The position numbers and the translations under genes are program-made. Positions 3,014 through 45,034 of a DNA stretch of 49,825 nucleotides are shown one piece after another. Origin of the DNA: Methanobacteriota archaeon (lineage in GTDB: Archaea; Thermoplasmatota; Thermoplasmata; RBG-16-68-12); NCBI GenBank assembly GCA_005878955.1, contig VBMI01000097.1, forward strand, positions 1-49,825, read 5' to 3'. Position 1 is the stretch's first letter. Every line of letters begins with the position of its first letter. The notes beneath the pieces were generated by a model that was given only the letters and a program-made list of their open reading frames with translations, searched no databases and had not been told where the DNA came from.

Positions 3014-3475
3014 ATGGGCTACGACGATCTCAAGGAGTTCGAGGGCGACGAATACACGGGGATGTCCGTCGGCGGGGAACATTCCTGGATCTACCCCCAC
3101 GGCCTCTGGCGAGAGCGGAAGGTCGCCCCGGACCGGTGGGAGTTCACGTTCACCTCCTTGAAAGAGCGGGAGAGGAGCGCGCCGGAAGGTTCGGGGGTCC
3201 CGCCGAAGACGCAATATCACTGGTACATCCTCGCACACCAGCGGGTCCGGAAGATCGACCAGGACACATACCACACGTTCATGTCGGGGGTCAAATACAG
3301 GATTGCGCACCGGAGGCCGCAGTGGCGGAAGTGGAGCTCCGAATACCCGGGGCAGGCCTCCGAGCGCGACCGGGTCACCGCGATCCTCGAGGCGACCCTC
3401 GCGGGCCTGGAGGGAGGAACCTCGCCCCCTAGGCAGCTCGTCCTCGTCGAGGCCGCTCCGGGCGAGAACCGCTAG
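3014..3475 (+). CDS. Hypothetical protein, 153 aa
   Basis: I do not recognise this family. The ATG at 3014 is chosen over the upstream in-frame ATG at 2894 because the CAAATACG element at 2983-2990 lies about 28 nt before it, as expected for a leaderless archaeal transcript, and because the extra 40 residues are low-complexity and proline-rich. The product is soluble and charged, rich in W, Y, H and R (YHWYILAHQRVRK, HRRPQWRKWSSEY), with an acidic N-terminus (MGYDDLKEFEGDEY). It has no signal peptide, membrane segment or cysteine cluster. Its 3' end overlaps the convergent acetyltransferase gene by 4 bases. Confidence 0.7.
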   Translation: MGYDDLKEFEGDEYTGMSVGGEHSWIYPHGLWRERKVAPDRWEFTFTSLKERERSAPEGSGVPPKTQYHWYILAHQRVRKIDQDTYHTFMSGVKYRIAHRRPQWRKWSSEYPGQASERDRVTAILEATLAGLEGGTSPPRQLVLVEAAPGENR

Positions 3476-4056
3476 GTCCTGCGGCGCTTCCCTTTCGACA
3501 CCGGCTTTCGCGGGAGCCTTCGGGCGGGGATCGATACCGTCTTCCGATCGTGGGCGCACCAGTTCCTCGCGTCGAGCGGGCGCCCGCATTCGCAGACCCA
3601 CCCGATAATTCTGGCGGGGACCCCCGCGACGAGGGCGTGCGCGGGCACATCCTTGGTCACGACGGCCCCCGCCGCGACCATCGCACTCCGTCCGACCGTG
3701 ACCCCGCACAGGATCGTCGCGTTCGCTCCGATCGATGCGCCGTCCTCCACATGTGTGGGGACGATCTCCCAGCCCGTGGAGTCCGCCCGCGGATACAGGT
3801 CGTTCGTGAAGCACGCGTGGGGGCCGACGAACACCCGGTCCCCGATCGTCACGCCCTTGTAGATCGTCGCGAAGTTCTGGACCTTGCATCCGTCCCCAAG
3901 GATCACGTCCGCGTCGATGTAGGCGTCCTTCCCGATGCGGCAGTCCCGCCCGATGCGGGCGCCCTCGCGGACCTGCACCCAGTGCCAGATTTGCGAGCCC
4001 TCGCCGATCGTCGCGTCCGGGGAGACGTCTGCGGTCGAGTGGATGCGGGATGCCAT
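3472..4056 (-). CDS. WbpD/WlbB-like sugar N-acetyltransferase, left-handed beta-helix
   Basis: The 194-residue product is built of hexapeptide repeats ([LIV]-G-x4: IGEGSQ, IGRDCR, IGKDAY, ILGDGC, IGDRVF). It has the FTNDLYPRA segment of the WbpD/WlbB family, which acetylates UDP-2-acetamido-3-amino-2,3-dideoxyglucuronate or related UDP-3-aminosugars using acetyl-CoA. The typical ending AGVPARIIGWVCECG carries clustered Cys (CECG, then WC), as family members do. The start is ATG 4056; an ACTTTAAGTT element at 4084-4093 lies about 32 nt upstream. It is a single divergent gene beside the glycan operon and probably modifies a nucleotide sugar for it. The exact substrate is inferred: the whole WbpD-like group shares these motifs. 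Confidence 0.88.
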   Translation of the reverse strand: MASRIHSTADVSPDATIGEGSQIWHWVQVREGARIGRDCRIGKDAYIDADVILGDGCKVQNFATIYKGVTIGDRVFVGPHACFTNDLYPRADSTGWEIVPTHVEDGASIGANATILCGVTVGRSAMVAAGAVVTKDVPAHALVAGVPARIIGWVCECGRPLDARNWCAHDRKTVSIPARRLPRKPVSKGKRRRT

Positions 4057-8041: not shown

Positions 8042-9127
8042 ATGAACATCGGCTCCCTAGAGGACATCCTGTCCCCCGCGTCCCAGATGCTCCTGCTCGC
8101 AATCGGGATGGCGTTCACGTTCTCCCTGGCGATCGCGGTCATCGCGCTCCCCGGGCTGATCAAGAAGATGCGGCAGGGCGGGATGGTGGGCAAGGACGTG
8201 AACAAGCCCGGGGATGTCCACGTCCCCGAGCTCGGCGGGATCGCCGCGGTGTTCGCGTTCACGATCTCCCTCTCGCTCGTCATCGGGATCGAGAAGCTGG
8301 CGGGCAACATCTTTGAACCCCCGTACCTCGCGGCGATCTCCGTGTTCTTCATCGCCTCGATGATCGGCTTGATCGATGACATCTCGAACATCAAGCAGCG
8401 GGTGAAGGCGATTGCCGTGGTCTTCGCAAGCCTCCCGCTCCTCCTGGTCCACTTTAAGAACGGGGGCAATGGCGTCGGGGTCATCGACACCGCCGTGAAT
8501 GCCTTCATCGCCCTCCCCCTCGGCGGGAAACTCCCGTTCGAGTGGTTCCCGTATCTTTACTGGTTCCTTCTCGTCCCCATCGGCGTGACCGGCGTGTCGA
8601 ACGCGATGAACATGTCCGCCGGCTACAACGGCCTCGAGAGCGGCCAGATCGCGATCGTGAGCGGGTTCTTGCTCGCGGTTTCCGCCTTCAAGGGCACCCT
8701 CGAGTCCGTCCTGATCTTCGCGTCCCTGACGGGAGCGGCCTTGGGGCTGTACATGTTCAACCGACATCCGGCGCGGGTCTTCATCGGGGACATCGGTACC
8801 CTGGGGCTCGGTGCGGCGATTGCGGCTGGCGCCGTCATCGGTGGGATCGAGGTGTACGGGTTCATCGCGATCGCCCCCGCTTTCTACGAGGCGGCGTCCA
8901 CGTTCTACTACTCCGTCATCCGGAAGGTCCCCGACCGCCGCCACGCGTGCCACAACCCGGTCATCCGAGACGACGGCACCCTGGAACCGCCGAAGGGCGC
9001 CGAACGCTACACGCTCGCGTACTGGCTCCTCTCGAGACGCCCGATGACGGAACGGAGGCTCGTGCGGGTCCTCCTCACGCTCTACGCCGCAGCGGGGGTC
9101 GCCGCACTCGCGCTGAGCGTGCTGTGA
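8042..9127 (+). CDS. Lipid-phosphate sugar-1-phosphate transferase (WecA/Alg7/MraY family)
   Basis: An integral membrane protein of 361 residues with about 10 helices and the family motifs in order: VNKPGDVHVPELGG near residue 53, the catalytic Asp pair in GLIDDISNIKQR near 115, NAMNMSAGYNGLESG near 187, and FIGDIGTLGLGA near 248. It transfers a sugar 1-phosphate, typically GlcNAc-1-P from UDP-GlcNAc, to a polyprenyl or dolichyl phosphate, the first step of a lipid-linked glycan. The N-M-x-x-G-x-N-G-L-E form is nearer the eukaryotic/archaeal Alg7 and AglH side than bacterial MraY. It is the first gene of an operon with no gap longer than a few bases down to about 17.6 kb, so it probably primes that glycan; it might also serve N-glycosylation. 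Confidence 0.92.
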   Translation: MNIGSLEDILSPASQMLLLAIGMAFTFSLAIAVIALPGLIKKMRQGGMVGKDVNKPGDVHVPELGGIAAVFAFTISLSLVIGIEKLAGNIFEPPYLAAISVFFIASMIGLIDDISNIKQRVKAIAVVFASLPLLLVHFKNGGNGVGVIDTAVNAFIALPLGGKLPFEWFPYLYWFLLVPIGVTGVSNAMNMSAGYNGLESGQIAIVSGFLLAVSAFKGTLESVLIFASLTGAALGLYMFNRHPARVFIGDIGTLGLGAAIAAGAVIGGIEVYGFIAIAPAFYEAASTFYYSVIRKVPDRRHACHNPVIRDDGTLEPPKGAERYTLAYWLLSRRPMTERRLVRVLLTLYAAAGVAALALSVL

Positions 9128-10009
9128 ATGAAGGCGGGAAAAGGACTCCGAGGCACCGCCCGGAGGGCGTCCCTCCTCCCCGCGCGGTATGGACTCACCC
9201 CGGACAAGCTCCGGACCCGAATCCGAGCGATGACGGCGGACCTCTCCCGGTGGGAGGCCACGCCGACCGTGCCCGTAACCGCGAACGCCTTGGACCGCCA
9301 TCCCGAAATCGCCGGGGACCTCGTCGGGTGCGATTCCGCGATTCATGGATACCGCCACGTTCGCTACGCGGGTCTGTCCGAAGCGGCGCAGTCCCACGAC
9401 CTCGACCTTGCGTCCCGGGCGTTCCGAAACCACCAGGTCCCCGTCCAGGGGTTCCGAGCCCCGTATCTGGCGGCGGACGCCACGACCCGCGCCCTACTGA
9501 AGTCGCGCGGGTTTGCGTACGACTCGAGCTCCCCTTCCATGGCCCTTCCGACGGACCACCCCGCTGCTGGAGAGATCGTCCGACTGGCGGAGGCCCGATA
9601 CGGGGACGTGCCGAGCGGACCCGCGAGGCCTACGCTGGAGGGGGGCCTTGTCGAACTCCCCGTCGCGCTCCCGGACGACGAGATTCTCATCGATGGACTG
9701 GGAATCGACAATGAAGAAGGACTCGGGCGTATCTTCCAGGCAATGCTAAGACCCGCCCTCGATGCGGGGGCCCTCCTTGTCCTCCAGATCCACCCGGAGC
9801 GGTTCCACCTGTGCTCCAAGGCAATTGAGGGGGTCCTCCGGTCCGCGACGGACGGGGGCGCGTGGATTGCCCCCCTGTCCGAGATTGCCTCGCACGTCCG
9901 CGCCTCCCCCAGCGGCTGGCCCGCCGGCCACGCGATGGCCCTTGCGGTGACAGGGGACCTGGACGCCGTTTCTTTGCTCGACTTCGCGCGCCGCGTGTGG
10001 GAGGGCTGA
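9128..10009 (+). CDS. Polysaccharide deacetylase-like (CE4/NodB fold) protein lacking motif 1
   Basis: The 293-residue product carries CE4 landmarks: RYGLTPDKL, ANALDRHPEIAGD, the metal-binding HGYRH, the GFRAPYL motif and a late LQIHPERF. CE4 enzymes remove N- or O-acetyl groups from glycans using a metal held by Asp-His-His. Here the usual N-terminal T-F-D-D (or DVE) segment with the catalytic and metal Asp is missing; the protein begins where the region after it would begin. The ATG at 9128 directly follows the previous stop (TGAATG), so a longer protein is not possible without a frameshift. It may be inactive, use another acid, or bind glycan only. Deacetylases of this form sit beside FemAB genes in bacterial exosortase loci, as here. 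Confidence 0.78.
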   Translation: MKAGKGLRGTARRASLLPARYGLTPDKLRTRIRAMTADLSRWEATPTVPVTANALDRHPEIAGDLVGCDSAIHGYRHVRYAGLSEAAQSHDLDLASRAFRNHQVPVQGFRAPYLAADATTRALLKSRGFAYDSSSPSMALPTDHPAAGEIVRLAEARYGDVPSGPARPTLEGGLVELPVALPDDEILIDGLGIDNEEGLGRIFQAMLRPALDAGALLVLQIHPERFHLCSKAIEGVLRSATDGGAWIAPLSEIASHVRASPSGWPAGHAMALAVTGDLDAVSLLDFARRVWEG

Positions 10010-10011
10010 GC

Positions 10012-10989
10012 GTGGACATCACCGCGGACCTCTCGGACACGGAGTGGTCCTCGTTCCTCTCCCAGGCGCCCGACGCCAACATCTTCCAGAGCCCGCTCCT
10101 TGCGCGGGCCTTCCGCCGTGCACGGGGGCACCGGCCGCACGTCCTCGCTGCGCTCTCGGGGGGCGCGGTGCGGGCGCTTCTCTCTGGCGTGATCGTCTCG
10201 TATTCGAAGGGTCGCGTTTCCCCCATGACATCCCGTGCAATCGTCGCGGGAGGGCCCATCGGCAATCCTACCGCGTTCCCCGCCCTGCTCGCTGCCCACG
10301 ACGCCGTCGCCGCGAAGAGAGCGCTCTTGACCCAGATCCGGAACCTGCGCACGCCGCCGGACGGGCGTCCGTTCGAGACCGCGGGGTACCGATGGGAGGA
10401 CCACCTCAACTTTGTTCTCGATCTACGCGCGGGTGAGGAACCCGTGCTCGCGGGGATGTCCAAGGCCCGGAGGAAGGGGATCTCTCGAGCAGAACGGTCC
10501 GGCCTCACGGCCCTGGAGCCGGGGCTCAATGACGTGGATTCCTTCTACCCGCTCCTCCTTGGAACGTATGAGCGGGCGAAAGTCCCGCTCGCGGACGCCA
10601 CCCTCTTCCGGTCGGTCTTCGAGGCCTCGGAGGGCGGGGAATGGCTGTGGGGCCTCACCGCCCTCCATGAGGGGCGACCGTGCGCGGTCCGCCTTTGCCT
10701 CCGATCGGGGCCCGTCGTATACGACTGGTACGCGGGCTCCTCCGACGAGGGACGGTCCCTCCACGCGGACGAGTGGCTCGTGTGGGAGGTCCTGCGGCGC
10801 GCGATCCGCGCGGGGTGCACGGCCTTCGACTTCCAGGGAGCGGGCGCTCCCGGGGAGGCGTACGGCCCCGGGGAGTTCAAGCGCCGCTTCGGCGGGGCGG
10901 AGACGAACCCGGGTCGCTTTGAGAAGGTGTACCGCCCGCTGACTCTCAAGGTGTCGAAGATCGCGTACGAGCTGTGGAGGCGGTGGTGA
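10012..10989 (+). CDS. FemAB-like (GNAT-fold) acyltransferase 1
   Basis: The GTG start at 10012 lies 2 bases after the previous stop; the product is 325 residues. It shows the double-GNAT pattern of FemAB/FemX proteins: NIFQSPLLARAF at the start, a basic KARRKGISRAERSG segment mid-way, VVYDWYAGSS, and the diagnostic end AFDFQGAG..GEFKRRFGG. FemAB proteins transfer amino acids from aminoacyl-tRNA to peptidoglycan peptides. Archaea of this kind lack murein, and the related FemAB proteins of exopolysaccharide/PEP-CTERM loci have no fixed substrate. Aminoacylation of an aminosugar is a reasonable guess given the DegT gene nearby. It is a distant paralogue of the gene at 11657, and its stop overlaps the methyltransferase start by 4 bases. 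Confidence 0.82.
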   Translation: MDITADLSDTEWSSFLSQAPDANIFQSPLLARAFRRARGHRPHVLAALSGGAVRALLSGVIVSYSKGRVSPMTSRAIVAGGPIGNPTAFPALLAAHDAVAAKRALLTQIRNLRTPPDGRPFETAGYRWEDHLNFVLDLRAGEEPVLAGMSKARRKGISRAERSGLTALEPGLNDVDSFYPLLLGTYERAKVPLADATLFRSVFEASEGGEWLWGLTALHEGRPCAVRLCLRSGPVVYDWYAGSSDEGRSLHADEWLVWEVLRRAIRAGCTAFDFQGAGAPGEAYGPGEFKRRFGGAETNPGRFEKVYRPLTLKVSKIAYELWRRW

Positions 10990-11654
10990 CGGCGGGCCCG
11001 GAGTCCGCCAACGACCCCTGGACGGAGTATATCGATTCCGCCCTCGTGTGGGCCCCCCTCGAAGGCGTGCACCTCCGGGAAGGCGCGCGCGTCCTCGACG
11101 TCGGGTCCGGGGACGGGCGCATCACCGCCCGCCTGCGCGCCCGGGGGTTCCGAGCCATCGGGGTCGAGCTCCGGCCGGGGCCCGGGGCGGACGTCATCGC
11201 CCGCGCGGAGGCGCTCCCCTTCCGCTCCGAGCGCTTCGAGCTCGTCCTCATGGTGCTCGTCCTCATGCACATCCCTGAGGCGCGACAGGCGTTGCAGGAG
11301 GCCCACCGGGTCACCAGGCCGGGCGGGAGGATCCTCGTGTCCGTCGGGAACCGGCGGAGCTTCACGGCGCTCGCGCTCCGGGAGGAGAGCCCGCGGTTCC
11401 TCGGGCGCAAGGTCCCCTACGACCACTACCGATCCTACACGGAGCGGACCCTTACGGGAGCCCTCGAGGCGGTCGGCTTCCGGGTCCGCTCGGTCCGCTG
11501 CGTCACGTACATTCCGCGGGTTTTCGGCAAGGCGCCCCGCCCGCTGCTGCGGGGACTCATCCCCCTCGTGCGCGGGCTCGAGGAATCGATCGCCCGCGTG
11601 CCCCTGGTCGGGAAGGTCGGGGTCCGCCTCGTGGCGATTGCGGAGAGGCCCTGA
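10986..11654 (+). CDS. Class I SAM-dependent methyltransferase
   Basis: The start is taken as GTG 10986 because it overlaps the previous stop (GTGA); GTG 10974 and 10983 are in-frame alternatives. The 222-residue product has the SAM-binding motif VLDVGSGDGRIT near residue 40, an acidic end of strand 2 (GVELRPG), motif ALPFRSERFELV near 81, and the RPGGRILVSVGN strand. This is the Methyltransf_11/UbiE-like type. In this operon it most likely methylates a sugar or an acyl group on the glycan. The substrate cannot be read from the sequence. It lies between the two FemAB-like genes, so the three products probably act on one modification. Confidence 0.85.
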   Translation: MTAGPESANDPWTEYIDSALVWAPLEGVHLREGARVLDVGSGDGRITARLRARGFRAIGVELRPGPGADVIARAEALPFRSERFELVLMVLVLMHIPEARQALQEAHRVTRPGGRILVSVGNRRSFTALALREESPRFLGRKVPYDHYRSYTERTLTGALEAVGFRVRSVRCVTYIPRVFGKAPRPLLRGLIPLVRGLEESIARVPLVGKVGVRLVAIAERP

Positions 11655-11656
11655 GG

Positions 11657-12670
11657 ATGACCGACATCGAGGTCGATCCGGGGAGGGAACGGCTCCGGGC
11701 CGCCTGGCGGGCCCTGGGGCGCGACGGGTTCTACCAGGACCCCGAGTACGGGGACCTCTACGAGGCGACGACCCGCCACGAGGCCGTCCGCGCGATCGCC
11801 TGGTCGGGGGACGCACCGGTCGGCTTCGCGCAGGCGATCGTCTTCCGCGAAGGGCCCAAGCTGGTCGGCTCCCTGGGGATCCACGCGACGATCCGCCACG
11901 GCCCCGTCTTCCCGAAGGGGGGCCGGCGGGACGATGCCCGCGCCCTCCTCGAGGGGCTCGTGGAGGGGCTCCGACCCCGGGTCGCCTATCTGCGCGTCTA
12001 TCCCGGGAGGGAGGACGTCCCGGGGCCCGCCTTTGCCTCCGCGGGATTCAAGAGGACCGCCTGGCTGAACTATTACGTGGACCTGACCGGCACGGAGGGC
12101 GAGGTCCTCGAGCGGGTCTCCAAGAAGAGGCGGTACGGCATCCGCAAGGCGACCGACCGCGGCATCGCGGTCCGGGAGGCCTCGTCCGTGGCGGACGTCC
12201 GCGAGGCGCACCGCCTGCTCGCCGCGACCCATGCGCGTGTCGAGTTCCCACTGGAGCCACAGGCCTTCTTCGAGCGGGCGTTCGAGCGGTTCCATCCGCG
12301 GCGCCTGCGCGTCTTTCTTGCGGAACTCGGCGGGAGACCTCTGGCGACGACCGTCGTCGCTGTCGACGGGACGGCCGCGGTGAATTGGTTCGCCGGCTCC
12401 GAGCTCGAACCTGAGACCTCCAAACTCTACCCGAACGACGCGGTGCTCTGGGCGGCCATCCGCTGGGCGAGATCCCAGGGACTCGCTTGTTTCGACATGG
12501 GGGGTGGCGGGCCCCCCGAGAACCTCGCGGGCTTCGTCGACTTCAAGCGCCAGTTTGGCGGGCGGGAAATCGACGTGGGGCAATACACGTTCGTCCCCTC
12601 CGAGTGGAAGCTCGCCGTCGCGGGCAGGGGCTTCGAACTCCTCCGCAAGATCCGGGGGATGCGGCGATGA
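11657..12670 (+). CDS. FemAB-like (GNAT-fold) acyltransferase 2
   Basis: The product has 337 residues and an ATG start 2 bases after the methyltransferase stop. It has the same layout as the gene at 10012: FYQDPEYGDLYEA at the start, the basic SKKRRYGIRKATDRG segment, AVNWFAGSELE, and the ending CFDMGGGG..VDFKRQFGG. It is a second member of the FemAB/lipid II aminoacyltransferase-like family. The two copies are well diverged, so they probably add different residues or act in sequence rather than serve as backups. It overlaps the DegT gene by 4 bases (ATGA). The substrate is unknown; a surface glycan or its lipid-linked precursor is inferred from the operon. Confidence 0.82.
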   Translation: MTDIEVDPGRERLRAAWRALGRDGFYQDPEYGDLYEATTRHEAVRAIAWSGDAPVGFAQAIVFREGPKLVGSLGIHATIRHGPVFPKGGRRDDARALLEGLVEGLRPRVAYLRVYPGREDVPGPAFASAGFKRTAWLNYYVDLTGTEGEVLERVSKKRRYGIRKATDRGIAVREASSVADVREAHRLLAATHARVEFPLEPQAFFERAFERFHPRRLRVFLAELGGRPLATTVVAVDGTAAVNWFAGSELEPETSKLYPNDAVLWAAIRWARSQGLACFDMGGGGPPENLAGFVDFKRQFGGREIDVGQYTFVPSEWKLAVAGRGFELLRKIRGMRR

Positions 12671-13854
12671 ACCGCACCGACGTCCCGCGCCGGCAACTCC
12701 GGCCCCGCCTCCCCGTGGCCTTCAACGGCGGGGACTTCCTCTCCACAATCCGGAAAGGGGAGCGGGGTCCGGGCCGGTCGTGGCCCGCGGGGGATGCGCG
12801 GACCTTCCTCCTCTCCAGCGGGCGCGCTGCATTGTGGCTGTTGCTGAAGGGACTCGGCTTGCCCGCCGGCGCCCGTGTCGGCGTCCCGCTCTTCTGTTGC
12901 GAGGCGGTCTTCGAGGCGGTCGAGCGCGCGGGGTGCGCACCGACGTTCCTCGACGTAAATCCCGAGACCTTCGTGCTGGACGCGGAGGACGCGTCGGTTT
13001 CTGTCGACGCGGTCGTCGCCGTCCACCTCTTCGGGAACCCCGTCGATCTCACCCGTCTGCGATCTCCCCGAGGCGCCCCGGTCGTCGAGGATTGCGCCCA
13101 CAGCTTCTTCGGGGAGATCCACGGAACCCCCGTCGGCTCCCTCGGGGTCGGCGCGATGTATTCGTTCGGACTGGGGAAGCCCGTGTCGTTGGGACGCCTA
13201 GGGGCGGCCGTGACGAGGACCACTGGCCTATCGGAACGGGGGCAAGACCTTCATCGCTCCCTCCCCGCCGAGGGGGCGCGCGGGAAGGTCTCGCGGGCGG
13301 TGACCTCGAAGCTCGTCGCCGCCTTGTACCGGGAGCCCTGGTACGGGATGTTCGCGTTCAAGGTCGCCCAGCAATACGAGTCCACGATCGACCCGATGGG
13401 GAAGGAGGCCGCGAGCTACCAGGCGGCGCCTTCGGAACTCATCGGGATCGTCGCCGACAAGGTGGACCGGTACAGGGGGACGATCGAGGCCCAGCGGGAC
13501 GCATGGAAGCATCTCGCGGATGTGGTCGCCGACGTCTCCAAGAATCGATTCGTGCCTCAGGCGACGACGAAGGGCTGCATCTCCGACCGGTGGCTCTTCG
13601 CGCTCCGATGCCCGTCCACGCGAGACCGGGACGAGCTGGTGGACCGGCTCGGCCGACAAGGGGTCGACTCCATCAAGTTCTACGACCGCGTGCCGGCCAT
13701 CGCCAGAGAGCGGTTCGGGTACAAGGGCGGCGCCCCCAGCGCGGAGTCGCTGTGCAAGTCCACGGTGGTGGTCCCGGTGCGCGTCCCCACCGACCGCGAC
13801 GACGGCGGTCGTCTCGCGGCCGCGCTCGCCAACGCGATCCGGGGTGCGGGATGA
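12667..13854 (+). CDS. DegT/DnrJ/EryC1/StrS-family aminotransferase
   Basis: The 395-residue product follows the PLP sugar-aminotransferase pattern: LSSGRAALWLLLKGL near residue 53, GVPLFCCEAV, FLDVNPETF near 100, AVVAVHLFGNP, VVEDCAHSFFGE near 140 and YSFGLGKPVSLGRLGA near 162. The Lys of the last motif is the expected Schiff-base residue, although the following G-E-G-G of classical members is replaced by G-R-L-G. Family members aminate keto-sugars on a nucleotide, or act as PLP dehydratases or epimerases. The product would supply an aminosugar for the FemAB-like enzymes just upstream. It overlaps both neighbours by 4 bases. Confidence 0.85.
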   Translation: MNRTDVPRRQLRPRLPVAFNGGDFLSTIRKGERGPGRSWPAGDARTFLLSSGRAALWLLLKGLGLPAGARVGVPLFCCEAVFEAVERAGCAPTFLDVNPETFVLDAEDASVSVDAVVAVHLFGNPVDLTRLRSPRGAPVVEDCAHSFFGEIHGTPVGSLGVGAMYSFGLGKPVSLGRLGAAVTRTTGLSERGQDLHRSLPAEGARGKVSRAVTSKLVAALYREPWYGMFAFKVAQQYESTIDPMGKEAASYQAAPSELIGIVADKVDRYRGTIEAQRDAWKHLADVVADVSKNRFVPQATTKGCISDRWLFALRCPSTRDRDELVDRLGRQGVDSIKFYDRVPAIARERFGYKGGAPSAESLCKSTVVVPVRVPTDRDDGGRLAAALANAIRGAG

Positions 13855-14897
13855 ACGTATCGATCGAGGTCGGCCACCCGGCGCATGTGCACTACTGGCG
13901 GTGGGTCCGCCAGGGGCTCCTGGATCGCGGGCATCGGGTTAGCGTCCTCGCCCGGGGGAAGGAGACCACCTTCCGCCTCCTGGACGCCCTCGGGATCCCC
14001 TTCGTGGAGGTCGGCCGCAACTACCCTACGATCGTCGGGAAGGGCCTTGGGATGTTCGCGAACAGCTGGGACGTCCTTCGAGAAGCGACACGGGAGGGGG
14101 TCGATATGATGCTCAGCGGCGGGATGCCGTACAGCGCCCAGGCGAGCGCGATCCTCGACGTCCCCCACCTCGCGATCATCGACACGGAGCACGCGTCCCT
14201 CACGCTCGCGGCGACGATCCCGTTCACGGACGTCGTGTGCACCCCGGCCTGCTTCCGCAGGTCGTTCCGAGGACCGAAGCACGCGCGCTTCCGGGGCTAC
14301 GTGGAGAGCATGTACCTCCGGCCCGAGCACTTCACGCCCCGGATGGAGGTCCTCGACCGCCTCGGCCTCGAGGCGGGCACCCCCTTCAGCGTCGTCCGAT
14401 TCTCGTCCTGGGACTCGAGCCACGACATGTTCGCGGTCCGGACCGGCCTCGAGACCGTCGCCGGACGCGAGCGTCTCGTCCGGGAACTGGAAGCGTTCGG
14501 CCCCGTGTTCGTGAGCAGCGAGGTCCCGCTCCCCGCGTCGATGGAACGGTTCCGGCTCACCCTCCCGCTCGAGGACATCCATTCCCTGCTCCACTACGCC
14601 TGGCTCTCCTGCGGGGAGGGCGCGAAGATGGCAGCGGAGGCGGGCGTCCTTGGCACCCCGTGGCTGTACATCGCCCCCGTGGGGCGGAGCTACCTCGATG
14701 AGCAGGAGTCCGCCTACGGGCTCGGTCGGACCGTCGGGGACCTGGGTTCGGCGATCGCACAGGCCCGGGCCTGGCTTGGGATGCCGGACCTGAAGAAAGA
14801 ATGGGCCAAGAAGCGGGAGAGGCTCATCAGTGACACAGTAGATGTCACCCAATTCGTGCTCCGGGAGATTGACGAGCTCGCGAGGAGAGACACGTGA
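13851..14897 (+). CDS. DUF354 protein, GT-B-like
   Basis: The 348-residue product starts MNVSIEVGHPAHVHYWRWVR, typical of the DUF354 family: a G-H-P-A-H-x-H segment, then GHRVSVLARGKETTFRLLD, and a C-terminal half with LSCGEGAKMAAEAGVLGTPW, like the donor-binding region of MurG/UDP-GlcNAc 2-epimerase-fold proteins. DUF354 genes are common in archaeal and bacterial polysaccharide loci. No biochemical role is firmly assigned; a glycosyltransferase or an epimerase of the GT-B fold are the likely options. It overlaps its neighbours by 4 bases on both sides. Confidence 0.85.
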   Translation: MNVSIEVGHPAHVHYWRWVRQGLLDRGHRVSVLARGKETTFRLLDALGIPFVEVGRNYPTIVGKGLGMFANSWDVLREATREGVDMMLSGGMPYSAQASAILDVPHLAIIDTEHASLTLAATIPFTDVVCTPACFRRSFRGPKHARFRGYVESMYLRPEHFTPRMEVLDRLGLEAGTPFSVVRFSSWDSSHDMFAVRTGLETVAGRERLVRELEAFGPVFVSSEVPLPASMERFRLTLPLEDIHSLLHYAWLSCGEGAKMAAEAGVLGTPWLYIAPVGRSYLDEQESAYGLGRTVGDLGSAIAQARAWLGMPDLKKEWAKKRERLISDTVDVTQFVLREIDELARRDT

Positions 14898-16087
14898 CCG
14901 CGCTGGACGTCCATGGGCGGACGGGCGGCACGACCGGGCCCATCCCCATCGCGTACATCGTGTCGATGGCGTCCGGGCTCCACAGCTTCGTATTTCGCGA
15001 GATCCGCGAACTCTACGGTCTGGGCTTCGCCGTCCGGATCTTTCCCACCAAGGTCGCGGCCGGGCCGTACATGCCGTTGGCGGGGTGGCCGGTCGACCGA
15101 CCCACCCCCGCGGGCTTCGTCCGCGGCCACGCCCGCATGATCCTCGGGCGCTTCCCGGAATACATGCGTTCCCTGCGGGAGGCCCTTCGATTCCGGGCCC
15201 TCGCGGACTTCGCGCTCGCGGGGTTCTTCGCCGCGCAGGTGGAGCGTTTCGGGGTCGAGCTCGTGCACTGCCATTTTGGCGACCACAAGCTCTTCATCGG
15301 GTACTTCGTGGGCCGGCTGTCGGGACGACCCGTCACGGTCACGATCCACGCGTACGAGCTCTACGACAATCCGAATCCCCGGCTGTTCGCCCGCGCCCTC
15401 GAGGCGGCGGCCGCGATTGTCACGGTGGCCGAGCACAATCGCGGGGTCCTCGCAGAGAGATGGAACGTCCCCCGTGAGAGGGTCGCGGTGATTCCGCTGT
15501 TCGCGGACCTGCCGTCGGGCTCGAATGGGGGCCCGTCAACGCGCAGAAGCAAGACCGTCCTCACCGTCGCGAGGTTCGTCGAGAAGAAGGGGCATCGCAC
15601 GCTCTTCCGCGCCCTTGCGGATCTCCCCCACGACTGGGAGGCGTGGCTGATCGGCGACGGGCCCCTCGATATCCGAGGGCTCGCGGCATCCCTCGGAGTC
15701 GCGGACCGGGTGCGGGTCCTCGGCCGGGTGACGGACCGGGAACTCCAGGAGGCCTATCGGACGGCGACCGTGTTCTGCCTACCCTCGGAACGCTCGGAGA
15801 CCGGGGACCAGGAGGGCGTGCCCGTCGCTCTTATGGAGGCGATGGCCGATGGGCTCCCCGTGGTGGCGACCCGACATGCGGGGATCCCGGAGCTCGTCGA
15901 GGAGACCCTTGTGGAAGAGGGGGACGCGACAGGACTCGCTCGCGCCCTCCAACGCATCGGGGAGGATCCTGCCCTCGCCGCCAGACAGGGCCGCCGAAAC
16001 CGGGAGATTATCGAGTCCCGATTCTCCCGGAGAAACGTTTTTCAACTAAAGCAATTGTTCGAGGGGCTGGTCAATGATCCTCGCTAA
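14894..16087 (+). CDS. GT4 glycosyltransferase
   Basis: The start is GTG 14894, overlapping the DUF354 stop. The product has 397 residues with a GT-B fold: IAYIVSMASGLHSFVFREI at the start, VHCHFGDHKLF, VTIHAYELYDNPN, then VLTVARFVEKKGH (the GT4 second-domain entry near residue 220), and the donor motif EGVPVALMEAMADGLPV with RHAGIPELVE. The layout fits retaining GT4 enzymes of the WcaL/AmsK/EpsF type, which extend exopolysaccharide repeats on the cytosolic face. The C-terminal end is intact (REIIESRFSRRNVFQLKQLF), unlike some of the GT4 genes downstream. It overlaps the following membrane-protein gene by 14 bases. Confidence 0.9.
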   Translation: MTALDVHGRTGGTTGPIPIAYIVSMASGLHSFVFREIRELYGLGFAVRIFPTKVAAGPYMPLAGWPVDRPTPAGFVRGHARMILGRFPEYMRSLREALRFRALADFALAGFFAAQVERFGVELVHCHFGDHKLFIGYFVGRLSGRPVTVTIHAYELYDNPNPRLFARALEAAAAIVTVAEHNRGVLAERWNVPRERVAVIPLFADLPSGSNGGPSTRRSKTVLTVARFVEKKGHRTLFRALADLPHDWEAWLIGDGPLDIRGLAASLGVADRVRVLGRVTDRELQEAYRTATVFCLPSERSETGDQEGVPVALMEAMADGLPVVATRHAGIPELVEETLVEEGDATGLARALQRIGEDPALAARQGRRNREIIESRFSRRNVFQLKQLFEGLVNDPR

Positions 16088-17633
16088 GCGGACGGTCTAT
16101 TCCCTGCTCCTCGCCCTCGTCTGCGCGGACCTAGTGTTCCGATATCCGCTCGACGTGCCCCACGAGCTGGGGGCGGACACGACCTTCATCCACACCCTCG
16201 CGACGAGCATCGCCGTGGAGGGGCGAGCGTCCTGGATCGTCCACCCGACGTCCTATTTCGGCCTCTACGCCCTGTCGTATCCGAGCGCGATCCCCTTCTA
16301 CTTCGCGGCGGGGACGATCCTCACCGGGATCCCGGTCGAAGGGATCATGCTCATCCTCGGCTGGGTCACGAGCGTCGTCGGAGTCCTTGGCGCCTTCCTC
16401 GTCGCGAGGAAGCTCCGCCGGGACGACATCTTCGCGCTCACCCTCCTTTTGGCCATCGGGAGCCTGCGGACCCACCAGCTCCGCCAGGTCGCCCTCGCTT
16501 TCGTGCTGTTCATCGTCCTCGCTGCGATCCACCGGATGGGGTTCCTCGTGTTCTTCGTGATCGTCGCGTACATGTTCGCGGTTCCGTTCCACAAGCTGAC
16601 CCAGAGGCTCCGCTTCGCGCTCTACAAGTACGAGCGGGTCGCCCGCTACGCGTTCGTCTTCACGACCCTGGGGAGCTTCATCGGGGTGTTCTACGTCCAG
16701 TTCCTCTACCCCGGGGTGGGGGGGGCGGACGTCGCCGAGCAGTACGGTTCGGGGGCGTTCTTTCATGGAGACTCCTTCCCCGTGCTCCTTGCAAACATGG
16801 GAGTGAGCCTCACGGGAAAGGTGGGGCCGCTGTTTCCCGTCGCGCTCGTCGGCCTGGTCGCCTACACCTGGCGAAGACCGAAGGAAGCCACGGACAAGTT
16901 CGTGTTGACGACGATGCTCCTGTTTCTTCCGCTCCTCTCCCTCCGGGACTACATGGGAGAGTTCCTCATTCCCCTCTTCACCATCCTCGTCGTGATCGGG
17001 CTTGTATCCGCCCGTCGCTTCTTCCCGAAGCGGGGGAAGCTGGTCGCCATTGGACTCGCGGTGTTGGTCATCGCTTCCGTGGGGTTTTCTTGGGAAATGA
17101 AGGACTACTGGAGAGAGCGGTATGTAACGGATGCCCCGATCGAGGACGGGACCTACGACGCGGCAGTGTATCTCCGCTTCTCAACGGACGAGACCATCAT
17201 CGCGAATGAAGGGCTCGGCGGTGGCCAACTGGCGGCGATTTCCGGACGACCTGTCTTGCCGATTGGAGGTGCGTCCCAGCACTGGACGGGGCCACAGCAG
17301 ATCGCCTGGCACTTCGTCGATCCCGGCACTGTTTCCGTCAGGCTCCTTGAGTTCGGGAACGTCTCCTTCAACAGCGACGAGGTGTACGTTCCCGTGGGCG
17401 TTCGCAACGCGGAGATTGATTGGGAGACAATCTTCTTCTACCGGGAACCCGCCGCGGCAGATCAGCAGTTTCTCCGATACCACATCCACTATGTCGTCGT
17501 ATTGGCAACTCTCCCCGACTCTTTCATTTCCTATGGGTTAGAGCGACCCTCGCCATACCTCACAACGGTCCTGCCGACCACGTCCTACGTGGTCTACGAC
17601 AACGGTGCCTACAGGATATGGTTCCGAGGATAG
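16074..17633 (+). CDS. GT-C-like multi-spanning membrane protein 1
   Basis: A protein of 519 residues with about 9-10 membrane helices in the first 340 residues and a soluble, probably extracytoplasmic, domain of about 170 residues ending YVVYDNGAYRIWF. The first loop has an acidic site (HELGADTTFIHTLATSI), where GT-C glycosyltransferases carry their catalytic Asp. The gene at 47474 has the same plan and a similar end (SLIYDNGWTRIYAV). Both may be lipid-linked sugar transferases or glycan polymerases; no specific family is recognised. GC falls markedly inside this gene, from about 17.0 kb on, so its 3' third belongs compositionally to the following cassette. Confidence 0.7.
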   Translation: MILAKRTVYSLLLALVCADLVFRYPLDVPHELGADTTFIHTLATSIAVEGRASWIVHPTSYFGLYALSYPSAIPFYFAAGTILTGIPVEGIMLILGWVTSVVGVLGAFLVARKLRRDDIFALTLLLAIGSLRTHQLRQVALAFVLFIVLAAIHRMGFLVFFVIVAYMFAVPFHKLTQRLRFALYKYERVARYAFVFTTLGSFIGVFYVQFLYPGVGGADVAEQYGSGAFFHGDSFPVLLANMGVSLTGKVGPLFPVALVGLVAYTWRRPKEATDKFVLTTMLLFLPLLSLRDYMGEFLIPLFTILVVIGLVSARRFFPKRGKLVAIGLAVLVIASVGFSWEMKDYWRERYVTDAPIEDGTYDAAVYLRFSTDETIIANEGLGGGQLAAISGRPVLPIGGASQHWTGPQQIAWHFVDPGTVSVRLLEFGNVSFNSDEVYVPVGVRNAEIDWETIFFYREPAAADQQFLRYHIHYVVVLATLPDSFISYGLERPSPYLTTVLPTTSYVVYDNGAYRIWFRG

Positions 17634-21018: not shown

Positions 21019-22340
21019 TGAGAGTCGCCCTCGTCTCTCCCAACTTCTACCCAAAGGCCGGAGGCGTCGAGAGTCACCTCATTGAATTGCTTCGATCCCT
21101 GAGGGGCGTGAAATTTTCCGTGCTGACCAACTGGAGACCCGGAATCGAGAAGGCGTACTCCCTCTTCCCCGATGTCGACTTCTATTTCGGTTGGCCCGCC
21201 GATCGACCGATAAGGAGGTGGTTCGTGTGGTCCCGGATCGCAATGGCCCCCTACAGGGGTCTCAGAGCATCGCTGGAAATCCTCCGAACGCTCAATCGAC
21301 GCAACTGGTTACGGCGTATCGACGCGGATATCTTCCACTTTCACCACATCGACTTGGATCAGGCGGACCGGATTGCAAGCAGGCTCGGGATGGCGAGAGC
21401 GCTGCCCCGCTGGTACCGTTGGGCAACCGAACCCGCCGATGACGAGGCAAAGACCCTGTTGACCGACCACACCGTTTTCACCGCGCCGGAGGAGACGGTT
21501 CCGGAAGGAGCAAAGCGGGCTCTTCTCGAAACGTTCGCGAACGTCGTCTCCGTTGATGCCGAAAGTTTCGAAGTGGTCAAAGCGTTTCAGAGAGGCCACG
21601 GTGGGCGGGCTTGGTTCATCCCTAACTCGGTCGACACGGATCGTTTCCGGAATCACGAGCAGAACCACCATGGATTCGTTGTGGGCTATGCTGCGCGCGC
21701 GGGCAAGTCCGGAGATGATCTGCTCGAATCCCTCATTCGACGACTTGGGACCGAGGTAAGGTGGCGCTTTGCCTTGGCCGGAGAGGAACACGATGTGCGA
21801 ACGGCTCCCATGCTCAAGGCTGCTCCAAGGGGGGACCTTTGTTTCAACCTGAGTTATCTGCAGATGCAGGAATTCTATCCGACCCTAGACCTCCTCGTGA
21901 ATCCCTTTCCTGGGGAGGGGGTCGGCCGCACAACTCTGGAAGCGATGTCGTGTGGAGTCCCTGTCATCGGGGTGGGCACAGGGGATAAGTACCCAATCAT
22001 CAACGGAAAAACGGGGTACCTGCTCCCCCCAGATCCCGATCTGGTGGCGCACACGATACAAGAATTGGTGCGAAGTCCCGAAGTCTTGTCGGAAATGGGG
22101 CGGCAGGCGCGATCACTCATCGGGGCCCCCATAGGGGGCTCGGCTCAATCACGGACGCGGGAGAGGGAGGACCAGTCGGAGATGTCGGCCCAGGCCAAGG
22201 TATACTTCGCGGTCGACCACTCTAAGGGAGAATACATACACGAGGCCTCCAACCGCAAGAGCGGCAACCAGTGCAACCAGATCCGCCACCAGACCGGATT
22301 GCGGGTTGAGGACCAAGGCATAGAGAATCCACTTCGTTAG
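21018..22340 (+). CDS. GT4 glycosyltransferase whose 3' end reads into the antisense of a flippase gene
   Basis: The ATG overlaps the previous TGA by one base. The normal GT4 core is present: MRVALVSPNFYPKAGGVESH, FHFHHIDLDQAD, IPNSVDTDRF, VVGYAARAGKSGDD, and a donor region FPGEGVGRTTLEAMSCGVPV. After MGRQARSLIGAPIGG (about 22140) the family likeness stops, and the last 60 or so codons simply read the opposite strand of the flippase gene, a 192-base overlap. The true C-terminal helix seems missing, so the gene was probably truncated by a rearrangement at about 22.12-22.15 kb, next to a small hairpin. The enzyme may be inactive or weakened. Confidence 0.78.
   Translation: MRVALVSPNFYPKAGGVESHLIELLRSLRGVKFSVLTNWRPGIEKAYSLFPDVDFYFGWPADRPIRRWFVWSRIAMAPYRGLRASLEILRTLNRRNWLRRIDADIFHFHHIDLDQADRIASRLGMARALPRWYRWATEPADDEAKTLLTDHTVFTAPEETVPEGAKRALLETFANVVSVDAESFEVVKAFQRGHGGRAWFIPNSVDTDRFRNHEQNHHGFVVGYAARAGKSGDDLLESLIRRLGTEVRWRFALAGEEHDVRTAPMLKAAPRGDLCFNLSYLQMQEFYPTLDLLVNPFPGEGVGRTTLEAMSCGVPVIGVGTGDKYPIINGKTGYLLPPDPDLVAHTIQELVRSPEVLSEMGRQARSLIGAPIGGSAQSRTREREDQSEMSAQAKVYFAVDHSKGEYIHEASNRKSGNQCNQIRHQTGLRVEDQGIENPLR
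22125..22139. repeat. Perfect GC-rich hairpin at a gene junction
   Basis: GCCCCC-ATA-GGGGGC forms a 6-base-pair stem with a 3-base loop. It sits exactly where the GT4 coding likeness ends, 10 bases from the stop of the convergent flippase. It could help end transcription from either side, or mark a recombination join. Confidence 0.55.
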
Positions 22341-23666
22341 TCCGGCGGTAATCCCTGCGGTCTCGGCGGCGAGCAACGGACCCGCCAAGCGTGTTACGAA
22401 ATCACCGATTCTGGCCTTTAGGAGGCCCGCTGCCCAATGGAAGGCCACCACCACGGCTACAGAAATCGGAAGCAGCATTGCGACCGCCGTCCCGGCGATT
22501 CCGAACATCAATGTGAGGGGGAAAAGCAGGAGCACGGACCCGCCGAGAATCAGCCCGTTCAACCGAGGAAGAGCCTTCGGCTGCCCCATGGATGCGAATA
22601 GAGGCGCTGTGAAATCAACAAGGGCCTTTGCGAACCCGTAGAACGCGAGAATAACCAAGGGGACGATAGAGGGAGTCCACACTGCCCCGAGCAACACCCG
22701 AACAATTTCGGGAGCCATCACAGCCAGACCAATAGCGATGGGTGCGACTGTCGCCGATGCGTATGCGAAACTCTCAAGATACCCGCGTCTCACTCTCTCG
22801 GGGTCCGCCTGAATCTTAGAGAGGGATGGAAAGAGGGCCGAGGCGGCCGAACCAGAGACCATCGAAGAGAATAGACAAAGGCTGTAGGCGATCGCATAGT
22901 ACCCAAGCGTCGCTGGACCAAGGAGATAGCCGACAGTGAAGTTGTCAACGTTCGTCATCAGGAATGTGAGGAGAGAGGCCAACAAAAGGTGTCGGGAATA
23001 TGAAAGGAGCGGCTTCGCCACAGCTCTGCTGAAGCGAAAGCGCGGGCGCCATGGGTGTGCGAATGAGACGCTGACGACCCAAGCTATCTGAGACACGACC
23101 ATCGCCGCGATTAACGACCAGAATCCAAAGCCTAGAATCGCCAATCCGATTGACAGGCCAGAGTTGACGACCTGGAGCAATACGTTCGGGACGATCAAGC
23201 GCCGGTAGTCGAGTTTTACCAAGAGCTTGACAGTCGGTACAAAACCCCAGGGGGTAATCAAGTACACAATCGCGAGAACCTGGCTCGCACGCGCCAAAGC
23301 GGGAACCCCGAAGAGCGCGGCCCACGGGAAGGCTACGACCATAGTCGTTGCAAGCAGAATCACTGACAGAGCAACACGGAGGGACATAGCCACCTCGTAG
23401 TCCTCCTCGCGCGCTGCGTCAGACCGTTGAATCAGGGCGTAGTCGAGACCGAAGTTACCGAGGACGGTAGTGATGCCAATCAGTCCCGCTGCCAGTGCGA
23501 AGATTCCGAAATCCTCCGGAAACAGGATTCTGGCGAGGACAATCTTTGTGACGACCGCAAAGACCCTGATGATCCACTGTAAGACGAGGAGTATCGCCAC
23601 GTTCTCGGCTGTGCGGGCACGGACGGATGGGGGGCCCAGGAATCGACTTTCAGACGACTCCGCCAT
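22149..23666 (-). CDS. Wzx-type flippase / lipopolysaccharide biosynthesis protein (MOP superfamily)
   Basis: A 505-residue membrane protein with about 12-14 helices. It begins with a short polar tail, then NVAILLVLQWIIRVFAVVTKIVLARILFPEDFGIFALA, the characteristic opening of Polysacc_synt/oligosaccharide flippases. Further family segments are NFGLDYALIQR, SLRVALSVIL, LDYRRLIVPNVLLQVVNSGLS and NVDNFTVGYLLGPATLGYYAIAY. It moves lipid-linked oligosaccharide across the membrane. It is on the minus strand inside a cassette otherwise on the plus strand, convergent with the truncated GT4. It probably serves the glycans made by the cassette. The PelG-like gene at 6.2 kb is a second, different carrier. 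Confidence 0.92.
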   Translation of the reverse strand: MAESSESRFLGPPSVRARTAENVAILLVLQWIIRVFAVVTKIVLARILFPEDFGIFALAAGLIGITTVLGNFGLDYALIQRSDAAREEDYEVAMSLRVALSVILLATTMVVAFPWAALFGVPALARASQVLAIVYLITPWGFVPTVKLLVKLDYRRLIVPNVLLQVVNSGLSIGLAILGFGFWSLIAAMVVSQIAWVVSVSFAHPWRPRFRFSRAVAKPLLSYSRHLLLASLLTFLMTNVDNFTVGYLLGPATLGYYAIAYSLCLFSSMVSGSAASALFPSLSKIQADPERVRRGYLESFAYASATVAPIAIGLAVMAPEIVRVLLGAVWTPSIVPLVILAFYGFAKALVDFTAPLFASMGQPKALPRLNGLILGGSVLLLFPLTLMFGIAGTAVAMLLPISVAVVVAFHWAAGLLKARIGDFVTRLAGPLLAAETAGITAGLTKWILYALVLNPQSGLVADLVALVAALAVGGLVYVFSLRVVDREVYLGLGRHLRLVLPLPRP

Positions 23667-24587: not shown

Positions 24588-24610
24588 GAACGCCCGCCCA
24601 CCATTATCGC

Positions 24611-24665: not shown

Positions 24666-25961
24666 TTGGCGCGTATCGCGGTCATCGGCATGGGGTACAC
24701 GGGCCTGGGGACCTCAATCGCCCTTGCGAAGCGTGGGCACACGGTGACCTGCGTCGACACGAACCCCGAGAAGGTGACGCTCCTTTCGAAGGGGCGCTCG
24801 CCGCTCTTCGAGCCCGGGTTCAGCGGGGAGATCGCCGCCCTCTCGCGTCGCCACCGCTTGATCGCCTCAATCGACACTCCCGCCCCCGTCCGCGACGCGG
24901 ACATCATCTTCCTGTCGGTCGGGACGCCGTCCCAGCCCGACGGATCCCTGGACACGACCCAACTCGGGGCTGCATGTCTCTCCGTCGGGGAGGGGCTCCG
25001 CGGGCGGCGCCGGCAGCTCGTCGTCGTCAAGAGCACAGTCGTCCCCGGGACCACGGAATCTGTGGTAATCCCCGCCCTCGAATCGAAGTCCTCGCTCCAC
25101 GCCGGGGACTTCGGCGTCTGCGTGAACCCCGAGTTCCTGCGCGAAGGGCATGCCCTCGAGGACAGCCTGCGCCCCTCGCACATCGTCATTGGCGAACGGG
25201 ACCGCGCGAGCGGGAACGCCCTCCTGCGGATATACGCGGGGTTCGCTTGCCCGAAGGTCCGGACCTCGGTCCGCATCGCGGAGGCGGTGAAGTACGCCAC
25301 GAATGCTTTCCTCGCGACGAAGGTCACCTTCGCGAACGAACTCGCGAACATCTGCACCCGGCTCGGCCTCGATGTGGACGAGGTCCTTCGCGGGATGTCC
25401 CTCGATCCCCGGATCAACCCCCGCCACCTGGTCCCCGGCGTGGGGTTCGGGGGCTCGTGCTTCCCGAAGGACCTGCGGGCGCTCGTCAGCCTCTCCCGCG
25501 GCGTGGGGTACGAGCCGTTCCTCCTGACGACGACGCTCTCCGTGAACGAGCGGCAGCACATGGAGGCGGTCCGCCTCCTGGAGAACGAACTCCGCCCCCT
25601 CTCGGGGAAGCGGGTCGCGATCCTGGGCCTCGCGTTCAAGGGGGGGACGGACGATGTCCGCGAGTCGAAGGCGCTCGCCGTGGCCTCGGAGCTCCTCCTC
25701 CGCGGGGCGCATGTCGTCGGGTACGACCCGAAGGCCGCCGCGAACTTCACGAAGGCGTTCCGTGGCGTCGAGATCGCCGCGACCGTGGAGGACGCCCTCC
25801 GGGGTTCGGACGCGTGCATCATCCAAGCGGCGTGGCCCGAGTTCTCCCGCCTCGGGCCCAAACAGTTCGCACTGATGCAGACCCCCATCGTCATCGACGG
25901 GAGGCGGACCTGGACTCCGCGTCGCGTCCCCAAGGGGATCCGGTACCGCCGGATCGGCTGA
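24666..25961 (+). CDS. UDP-glucose/GDP-mannose 6-dehydrogenase family protein
   Basis: The start is TTG 24666, since LARIAVIGMGYTGLGTSIAL begins the NAD-binding fold immediately and a TATA-like box is well placed upstream. The product has 431 residues. It shows the G-M-G-Y-T-G dinucleotide loop, VGTPSQPDGSLD near residue 83, KSTVVPGTTE near 120, NPEFLREGHALEDSL near 152, the catalytic cysteine in VGFGGSCFPKDLRAL near 261, and LGLAFKGGTDDVRES near 323. These enzymes oxidise C6 of a nucleotide sugar in two NAD+ steps; with galU divergent to it, UDP-glucose to UDP-glucuronate is most likely, but UDP-GlcNAc or GDP-mannose cannot be excluded from motifs alone. Confidence 0.93.
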   Translation: MARIAVIGMGYTGLGTSIALAKRGHTVTCVDTNPEKVTLLSKGRSPLFEPGFSGEIAALSRRHRLIASIDTPAPVRDADIIFLSVGTPSQPDGSLDTTQLGAACLSVGEGLRGRRRQLVVVKSTVVPGTTESVVIPALESKSSLHAGDFGVCVNPEFLREGHALEDSLRPSHIVIGERDRASGNALLRIYAGFACPKVRTSVRIAEAVKYATNAFLATKVTFANELANICTRLGLDVDEVLRGMSLDPRINPRHLVPGVGFGGSCFPKDLRALVSLSRGVGYEPFLLTTTLSVNERQHMEAVRLLENELRPLSGKRVAILGLAFKGGTDDVRESKALAVASELLLRGAHVVGYDPKAAANFTKAFRGVEIAATVEDALRGSDACIIQAAWPEFSRLGPKQFALMQTPIVIDGRRTWTPRRVPKGIRYRRIG

Positions 25962-45030: not shown

Positions 45031-45034
45031 AGCG

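Follow-up and report, generated by a model that had tools for sequence, protein, structure and literature searches.

This locus raises the question of what is made by the run of co-directional genes at 8042-17633 of the window, the whole stretch of 49,825 nucleotides analysed here, and whether the product is connected with the archaeosortase encoded further along the same DNA. The window is contig C166 of G000, an archaeal metagenome-assembled genome of 2.15 Mb in 180 contigs that is 86.6% complete. A sequence-only reading had described an operon of transferase, deacetylase, FemAB, methyltransferase, second FemAB, DegT and DUF354 genes and had proposed it as an archaeal counterpart of the bacterial exosortase-associated (PEP-CTERM) locus. 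The open reading frames (ORFs) and their families were confirmed, and the genes of the run are as follows.

8042 to 9127, plus strand: polyprenyl-phosphate sugar-1-phosphate transferase of the GPT/WecA/MraY superfamily (PF00953 99 bits; MraY_archaea 70 bits, cut-off 450 not reached)
9128 to 10009, plus strand: circularly permuted NodB/CE4 deacetylase (PF01522 29.5 bits, cut-off 23.1)
10012 to 10989, plus strand: FemAB-family (GNAT) transferase 1, a predicted aminoacyl transferase (PF02388, PF13480)
10974 to 11654, plus strand: class I S-adenosylmethionine-dependent methyltransferase, accessory (PF13489 68 bits)
11657 to 12670, plus strand: FemAB-family transferase 2 (PF13480 72 bits, PF02388 53 bits)
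12667 to 13854, plus strand: divergent DegT/DnrJ aminotransferase (PF01041 101 bits; best NCBIfam match 68.7 bits)
13851 to 14897, plus strand: DUF354 protein, possibly of GT-B/epimerase fold (PF04007 22.3 bits against a cut-off of 22, marginal)
14894 to 16087, plus strand: GT4 glycosyltransferase (PF13692 102 bits)
16074 to 17633, plus strand: polytopic membrane protein, possibly a GT-C glycosyltransferase (no Pfam family; aligned and conserved in 7 genomes)

With a probability of about 0.6, the operon would make a lipid-linked glycan in which an amino acid takes the place of the N-acetyl group on an amino sugar, following the gene logic of the Wbp/Vim system. The transferase at 8042 would link a sugar phosphate to polyprenyl phosphate, the permuted deacetylase would remove the N-acetyl group of the amino sugar and so expose an amine, and FemAB1, perhaps with FemAB2, would acylate that amine from aminoacyl-tRNA. 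The GT4 enzyme and other glycosyltransferases would then extend the glycan and a Wzx flippase would export it. Deacetylation followed by aminoacylation is likely; we infer the biochemistry throughout, including the order of the enzymes, the identity of the sugar and the amino acid, and any use of the product by the archaeosortase.

The deacetylase is a circularly permuted NodB/CE4 enzyme in which motif 1 has moved to the C-terminus, a displacement absent from the sequence-only reading. CE4 enzymes are defined by motif 1 (base Asp and metal Asp), motif 2 (H..H), motif 3 (RxPY) and motif 5 (His) (PMC5855634). Motif 2 was located at H73-x3-H77 (H73-GYR-H77), motif 3 at R110-A-P-Y113 and motif 5 at H222 (LQIHPER), while the motif 1 strand (ALAVTGDLDA, residues 271-280, with T-x-D277-x-D279) was placed at the C-terminus and none was found before motif 2. 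Six homologues in the order had the same displaced motif order. A scan of 84,980 species genomes gave 49 loci, comprising 39 full relatives and 10 canonical Rhizobiales proteins that matched over short stretches. The full relatives together with the proteins of the window, G030, G005 and G140 formed a set of 43 homologues, and TxDxD was C-terminal in all 43 and preceded motif 2 in none, so that the 1-2-3-4-5 order of CE4/NodB enzymes was replaced throughout by one in which motif 1 comes last. Motif 2 was visible in 41, the other two rows being cut at contig ends, and D277, D279, H73, H77, R110, P112, Y113 and H222 were invariant in an alignment of 33 of the homologues. Motif 1 (such as FTVDVDRD) was N-terminal in 20 of 23 canonical relatives in the same phylum.

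PF01522 covered the protein by profile positions 34-122 of 124 only, as would be expected of a degenerate and inactive NodB protein that had lost motif 1. This explanation is very improbable, however, as all 43 homologues carry the TxDxD strand at their C-terminal end, and it fell into register with canonical motif 1 when the profile was rotated. A truncated or frameshifted gene was also considered, and was ruled out by the same 43 of 43 C-terminal motifs. The fold is the TIM-like NodB fold, since the AlphaFold model (mean predicted local distance difference test score, pLDDT, 95.7) aligned to 3rxz with Z 21.4 and a root-mean-square deviation of 2.8 over 220 residues (Foldseek and VIA-align of the model). 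Its best PDB matches were CE4 deacetylases including SpPgdA, PdaC and ArnD, and sequential alignments to the canonical enzymes began late, that to SpPgdA from residue 279, with D275 (mutated in 2c1i) just before.

Rotation of profiles gave moderate support for the permutation. The hhalign score rose from 199.7 in the native order to 206.8 with the C-terminal block placed first (207.0 without the first 22 residues), and the support is moderate because 4 of 200 shuffles reached the rotated score, the best with 210.2, although none of 10 did so in a smaller run. The corresponding Pfam test was uninformative, giving no gain over its shuffled control, with native, rotated and shuffled scores of 29.5, 29.7 and 29.7 bits for the window protein and 48.6, 48.8 and 48.9 bits for L067. 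Permutation in CE4 enzymes has precedent in PgaB and IcaB, which are circularly permuted with a shuffling point in Loop 5 (PMC5855634). The permuted CE4 domain is common to both cases, and the present family is set apart, by that description, in that its motif 1 strand moves to the C-terminus. A permuted CE4 enzyme of this position and family was not found in the open-access literature searched. The bacterial permuted deacetylases (L073-L104, e.g. L074 10001-11260) were mostly about 420 residues long, with some 130 extra residues separating motif 5 from the displaced motif 1.

Permuted deacetylases were found on both sides of the domain boundary, namely in archaeal Thermoplasmata and Nanoarchaeota (scan loci and tree) and in TA06, WOR-3, Stahlbacteria, Chloroflexota, Planctomycetota, Verrucomicrobiota, Nitrospirota, Pseudomonadota and Auribacterota. 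Carriers were sparse, with six among 37 genomes of the order (a seventh match, of 93 residues and E 3e-6 in G029, was not counted as permuted) and two strong matches among 243 genomes sampled from the phylum, G000 and the closed genome G140. The other 23 matches in the phylum sample were weak (E 1e-11 to 1e-17) and mostly canonical. The TA06 locus L067 shared the gene order GPT-deacetylase-FemAB-FemAB-DUF354 with archaeal G003 and its deacetylase fell inside an archaeal set of the tree (support 100/98), a placement that suggests a transfer between the domains or a misbinned contig.

The genes around the deacetylase are tightly packed and their order is kept. The transferase stop codon (9125-9127) abuts the deacetylase ATG at 9128, and the deacetylase stop (10007-10009) is followed by the GTG at 10012 that was taken as the FemAB1 start, 9997 being also possible. 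All six deacetylase-holding genomes of the order retained the order GPT-deacetylase-FemAB, so the arrangement is more than chance. A GPT transferase lay directly 5' of the deacetylase in G030, G003, G005, G006, G008, G140 and the TA06 locus, and DUF354 orthologues were found downstream of FemAB in G003, G005, G006 and G008. In the Nitrospirota locus L088 (9896-12385), the deacetylase ORF, read by eye, runs in frame into a DUF354-like protein. The window copy of the membrane protein at 16074-17633 lacks, in frame, about 32 residues (a KDTxW segment) that six homologues carry; its predicted structure reached a pLDDT of 38 and the fold was not used. A tRNA-Met called by ARAGORN at 12617-12707 on the minus strand, inside FemAB2/DegT, is probably spurious, and an Rfam scan gave no match at the gathering threshold.

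The partner of the deacetylase points to the second half of the exchange. A FemAB relative was present in 26 of the 39 scan loci with a permuted deacetylase and was the next gene downstream in 16 (the 16 counted by eye), as compared with none of the 10 canonical control loci from the same scan, which represent one narrow group. An ATP-grasp protein instead stood next to the deacetylase in four of the 13 loci without FemAB (L068, L071, L082 and L103) and in G140, and several soil Chloroflexi loci carried both (totals for FemAB or ATP-grasp being tallied by eye in locus tables). Two unrelated amide-forming folds beside the same deacetylase point to exposure of an amine followed by coupling of a carboxylate.

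The only NCBIfam match of FemAB1 was to the XrtA/PEP-CTERM FemAB family TIGR03019, which was likewise matched by 17 of 17 FemAB proteins scanned from these loci (E<=1e-5; best E 2e-47). The scores place neither protein within the PEP-CTERM equivalog subfamilies, the comparison that the sequence-only reading had suggested, since FemAB1 reached 59.8 bits against a TIGR03019 cut-off of 260.35 and the deacetylase 24.7 against a TIGR03006 cut-off of 276.2. The XrtA/PEP-CTERM locus (TIGR03006 deacetylase, TIGR03019 FemAB, TIGR03108 amidotransferase) resembles the present one in that a deacetylase adjoins FemAB among glycosyltransferases and the genome, or the contig itself, carries a sortase. It differs in that both proteins here are far below the equivalog cut-offs, the deacetylase is permuted and 13 of the 37 genomes of the order have the sortase without the pair. 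The proposed archaeal counterpart is partly supported, with the FemAB family match and the co-located sortases in its favour and the failed equivalog test and the differently wired deacetylase against it.

The FemAB proteins may instead be plain N-acyltransferases using acetyl- or another acyl-CoA, in which case the deacetylase and FemAB would tune acetylation and add no amino acids. PF13480, a GNAT family, was the stronger Pfam match in both FemAB proteins, and the acyl donor of the Caulobacter enzyme HfsK is not established (PMC5362036). All nine PDB sequences matched by the FemAB profile were nevertheless Fem-type or aminoacyl-tRNA-dependent enzymes, the solved relatives being Lipid II glycyltransferase, FemX and aminoacyl-tRNA-dependent peptide synthases (6snr with E 4e-24, FemX with E 1.7e-16), and replacement by ATP-grasp, a carboxylate-amine ligase fold, fits amide formation with an amino acid. 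We regard the use of acyl-CoA as rather unlikely. The aminoacyl-modified aminosugars of the earlier proposal were a good guess because the nearest solved FemAB structures are aminoacyl-tRNA-dependent.

The sugar is likely a 2,3-diamino-uronic acid of the Wbp pathway, which we infer from the genes that accompany the operon. In G000, consecutive genes on contig C156 encode WbpE, WbpB, a WbpA-like dehydrogenase and a WecB/WbpI-like epimerase, and a WbpD-like gene starts at window position 3472. WbpA, B, E, D and I were on the contig of the operon in G003, WbpA, B, D, E and I abutted the operon in G140, and L100 featured a contiguous WbpB-D-E-deacetylase-FemAB arrangement. The nucleotide-sugar dehydrogenase of the window itself (24684..25961) is probably not WbpA because its sequence most resembles that of UDP-glucose dehydrogenase.

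In G000, G003, G005, G006 and G008, the Wbp cassette or the deacetylase operon is adjoined by a rhomboid protease that has a zinc-ribbon tail (L172 6479-7384; L173 3065-3952, minus strand; L054 1667-2539, minus strand; L055; L056). It scored 32-49 bits to the rhombosortase family TIGR03902 (cut-off 84), and a secreted protein with a C-terminal transmembrane segment and basic tail was near it in G003, G005, G006 and G008.

Several results weigh against an exchange of acetyl for an amino acid on such a sugar. Nine of the 39 loci had neither FemAB nor ATP-grasp, L077 and L102 with little downstream DNA, and acyl donors other than aminoacyl-tRNA are available to FemAB relatives. The Wbp assignments were all below the NCBIfam equivalog cut-offs and stand for homology only, and homologues of WbpB and WbpE were present in 29 and 24 of the 37 genomes of the order, so that carriers of the operon are not singled out by them.

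The exchange of N-acetyl for an amino acid has a parallel in the Wbp/Vim system of Porphyromonas, in which, by the published proposal, VimE takes off the C-2 acetyl group and VimA adds serine or glycine, with the C-termini of cargo proteins joined to that amino acid; its authors also note the TIGR03019 match and exosortase neighbourhoods (PMC7468200). The systems of Porphyromonas gingivalis and Tannerella forsythia are alike to the present loci, by family description, in the CE4 deacetylase (VimE) and the TIGR03019-matching transferase (VimA) (PMC7468200). Further likenesses are Wbp A/B/D/E genes, glycosyltransferases, a sortase in the same genomes and, in some loci, an AsnB-like WbpS, to which AsnB in G140 and L100 corresponds here. 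The sortase of the Wbp/Vim system is PorU. The present system differs in being archaeal, in having an archaeosortase instead of PorU and the type IX secretion system, in its permuted deacetylase and in Wbp genes that are partly on another contig.

Whether the product serves protein sorting depends on the genes around the operon, which in the window are the following.

3472 to 4056, minus strand: WbpD-like hexapeptide sugar N-acetyltransferase (TIGR03570 112.8 bits, below the cut-off of 160.8), 69% identical to a protein adjoining the G030 operon
22149 to 23600, minus strand: Wzx-type MOP flippase (PRK10459 136.7 bits, below the cut-off of 273)
23724 to 24593, minus strand: GalU, UTP-glucose-1-phosphate uridylyltransferase (TIGR01099 328.5 bits, over cut-off)
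24684 to 25961, plus strand: nucleotide-sugar dehydrogenase, nearest the UDP-glucose dehydrogenase AglM (TIGR03026 401.8 bits, over cut-off)
26327 to 27526, minus strand: archaeosortase, ArtC-like, with a C-terminal zinc-finger tail (TIGR04178 41 bits, cut-off 23; TIGR03762 69.7 bits, below 100)

The archaeosortase, expected about 9 kb beyond the operon, lies 8.7 kb past 17633 and 16 kb downstream of the deacetylase, and the interval holds further glycosyltransferases (by eye) besides the flippase, GalU and the dehydrogenase. A second glycosyltransferase cluster at 41547-49825 on the plus strand includes another GT-C-like membrane protein and, by eye, a radical SAM/B12-type protein at 43594-45030.

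Presence and absence gave little indication of a link, and sortase presence tracks the deacetylase weakly. The TIGR04178 cut-off was exceeded by two proteins in G000. Any sortase was found in 5 of 6 deacetylase carriers of the order compared with 17 of 31 others (p=0.37), and the association of the window-type archaeosortase with the deacetylase was also not significant (p=0.09). In Anaerolineae a sortase was present in 11 of 19 carriers and 57 of 180 others (p=0.039, kinship not corrected). The window-type archaeosortase occurred in 18 of 37 genomes of the order, and the 13 of these that lack the deacetylase count against a dedicated link. A RING-like/C1-like zinc finger was observed in the C-terminal tails of this archaeosortase in all 18 genomes (window 26327-27526, minus strand; orthologues L016-L034, L052).

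Physical linkage was more telling. A sortase was within 25 kb of the deacetylase in four of 17 genomes (G000, G030, G140 and G068) compared with 0.26 expected (P 1.5e-4), in three against 0.22 without the window (P 0.0016), and in two against 0.21 when G030, like the window a member of the window's family, was also set aside (P 0.019). The count took in the 17 genomes that carry both genes and for which the contig of the deacetylase was known, with positions entered by hand and the 25 kb limit set after the data had been seen. It left out G054, G055, G056, G060 and G061, which had a sortase over the cut-off and a deacetylase contig number that was not resolved; no sortase was found in their deacetylase stretches with only 8 seed sequences used. 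A TIGR04178 match (G060:C20:4164) was rejected as a neighbour of the L092 deacetylase, the DNA just downstream of that deacetylase encoding a different, flavoprotein-like ORF (by eye), so that the two do not share a contig. No linkage was found in G003 or in the Anaerolineae counted.

Two of the linked genomes lie outside the window's family. G140 is a closed single contig of 1.437 Mb whose only archaeosortase is separated by 14 kb from the deacetylase, and the island there also holds an AsnB with 400 bits to TIGR03108 (cut-off 817) and a better match to general asparagine synthase. The bacterial genome G068 encodes an exosortase (TIGR02602 148.8 bits, cut-off 105.55) 22 kb from its Wbp-deacetylase-FemAB genes on the same 149 kb contig, adjoining a secreted-looking protein with a transmembrane segment and basic tail.

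As for CTERM-tailed proteins, which had been suggested as something to look for in the genome, G000 showed CTERM-like tails with scores only at or below the cut-offs. Within the sampled part of G000, two cupredoxin-like secreted proteins encoded in tandem (L184 11759-12262 and 12361-12861, G000:C10) had PGF-CTERM-like tails of the form PTPG[FL]E-transmembrane-basic. PF18204 reached 18.8, equal to its cut-off, in six frames and 16.3 in the gene call, and Heimdall-CTERM reached 21.5, below 24. PF18204 had no match in G000 at E<=0.001; at E<=10 there was one G000 match at the cut-off, and 11 of 14 control genomes also matched, two of them over the cut-off. A large secreted protein at window 1-2641 on the minus strand runs off the contig end and seems to be split near 2040; the C-terminus, where a CTERM tail would show, is missing.

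For the link of sorting and glycan making suggested from the sequence, physical linkage in the window, G030, G140 and G068 speaks more strongly than presence and absence, whose association was not significant in the order and weak in Anaerolineae. The glycan may simply be free capsule, exopolysaccharide or S-layer N-glycan with aminoacyl decoration, with the sortase a mere neighbour in a general surface island. The cluster is dominated by glycosyltransferases, the Wzx flippase and the conserved membrane protein, retention of the archaeosortase extends across the order, and a deacetylase and Fem-like acyltransferase pair (HfsH/HfsK) is thought to modify the exopolysaccharide precursor of the Caulobacter holdfast (PMC5362036). 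That pair is alike by description and differs in that the available text describes no sortase (PMC5362036). Co-location in separate lineages is not explained by a free glycan alone, and we give this explanation slightly less than an even chance.

Alternatively, the aminoacylated sugar could be the acceptor onto which CTERM-cleaved proteins are transferred by the archaeosortase or exosortase, as Veith et al. speculate for exosortases (PMC7468200). The linkage in four of 17 genomes, the archaeosortase of G140 with its TIGR03108-related AsnB, the exosortase of G068 on the contig of the deacetylase and the CTERM-like tails of G000 are consistent with such a role. Against it stand the 13 genomes with archaeosortase and no deacetylase, the PRPP synthetase that adjoins the window-type archaeosortase in 6 of 7 other loci read, the loci without linkage, the choice of the 25 kb limit after the fact and the lipid-anchored archaeosortase substrates of Haloferax (PMC7157517). 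An acceptor role is on balance unlikely, and the link of the deacetylase/FemAB module to a sortase is plausible and unproven. The open-access literature searched yielded no paper that pairs an archaeal FemAB with an archaeosortase.

The exchange of N-acetyl for an amino acid would, in its widest and most doubtful extension, be the work of a cross-domain module. The permuted deacetylase with FemAB or ATP-grasp would make an aminoacyl-diaminouronate on a polyprenyl-linked glycan, and the free alpha-amine would be the nucleophile for archaeosortases and exosortases that release and anchor CTERM proteins. Three findings strengthen the idea that an aminoacyl-sugar module is linked to sortases, namely the Wbp genes, the replacement of FemAB by ATP-grasp and the co-location in separate lineages.

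For the CE4 enzymes, the permuted deacetylase clearly exemplifies natural motif shuffling, in a family that Pfam easily misses or annotates only by half. For protein sorting, the acceptor of cleaved exosortase substrates and of most archaeosortase substrates is largely open, and a portable, cross-domain module that recurs in linkage with a sortase provides a specific candidate for that acceptor, together with the genes that may make it.

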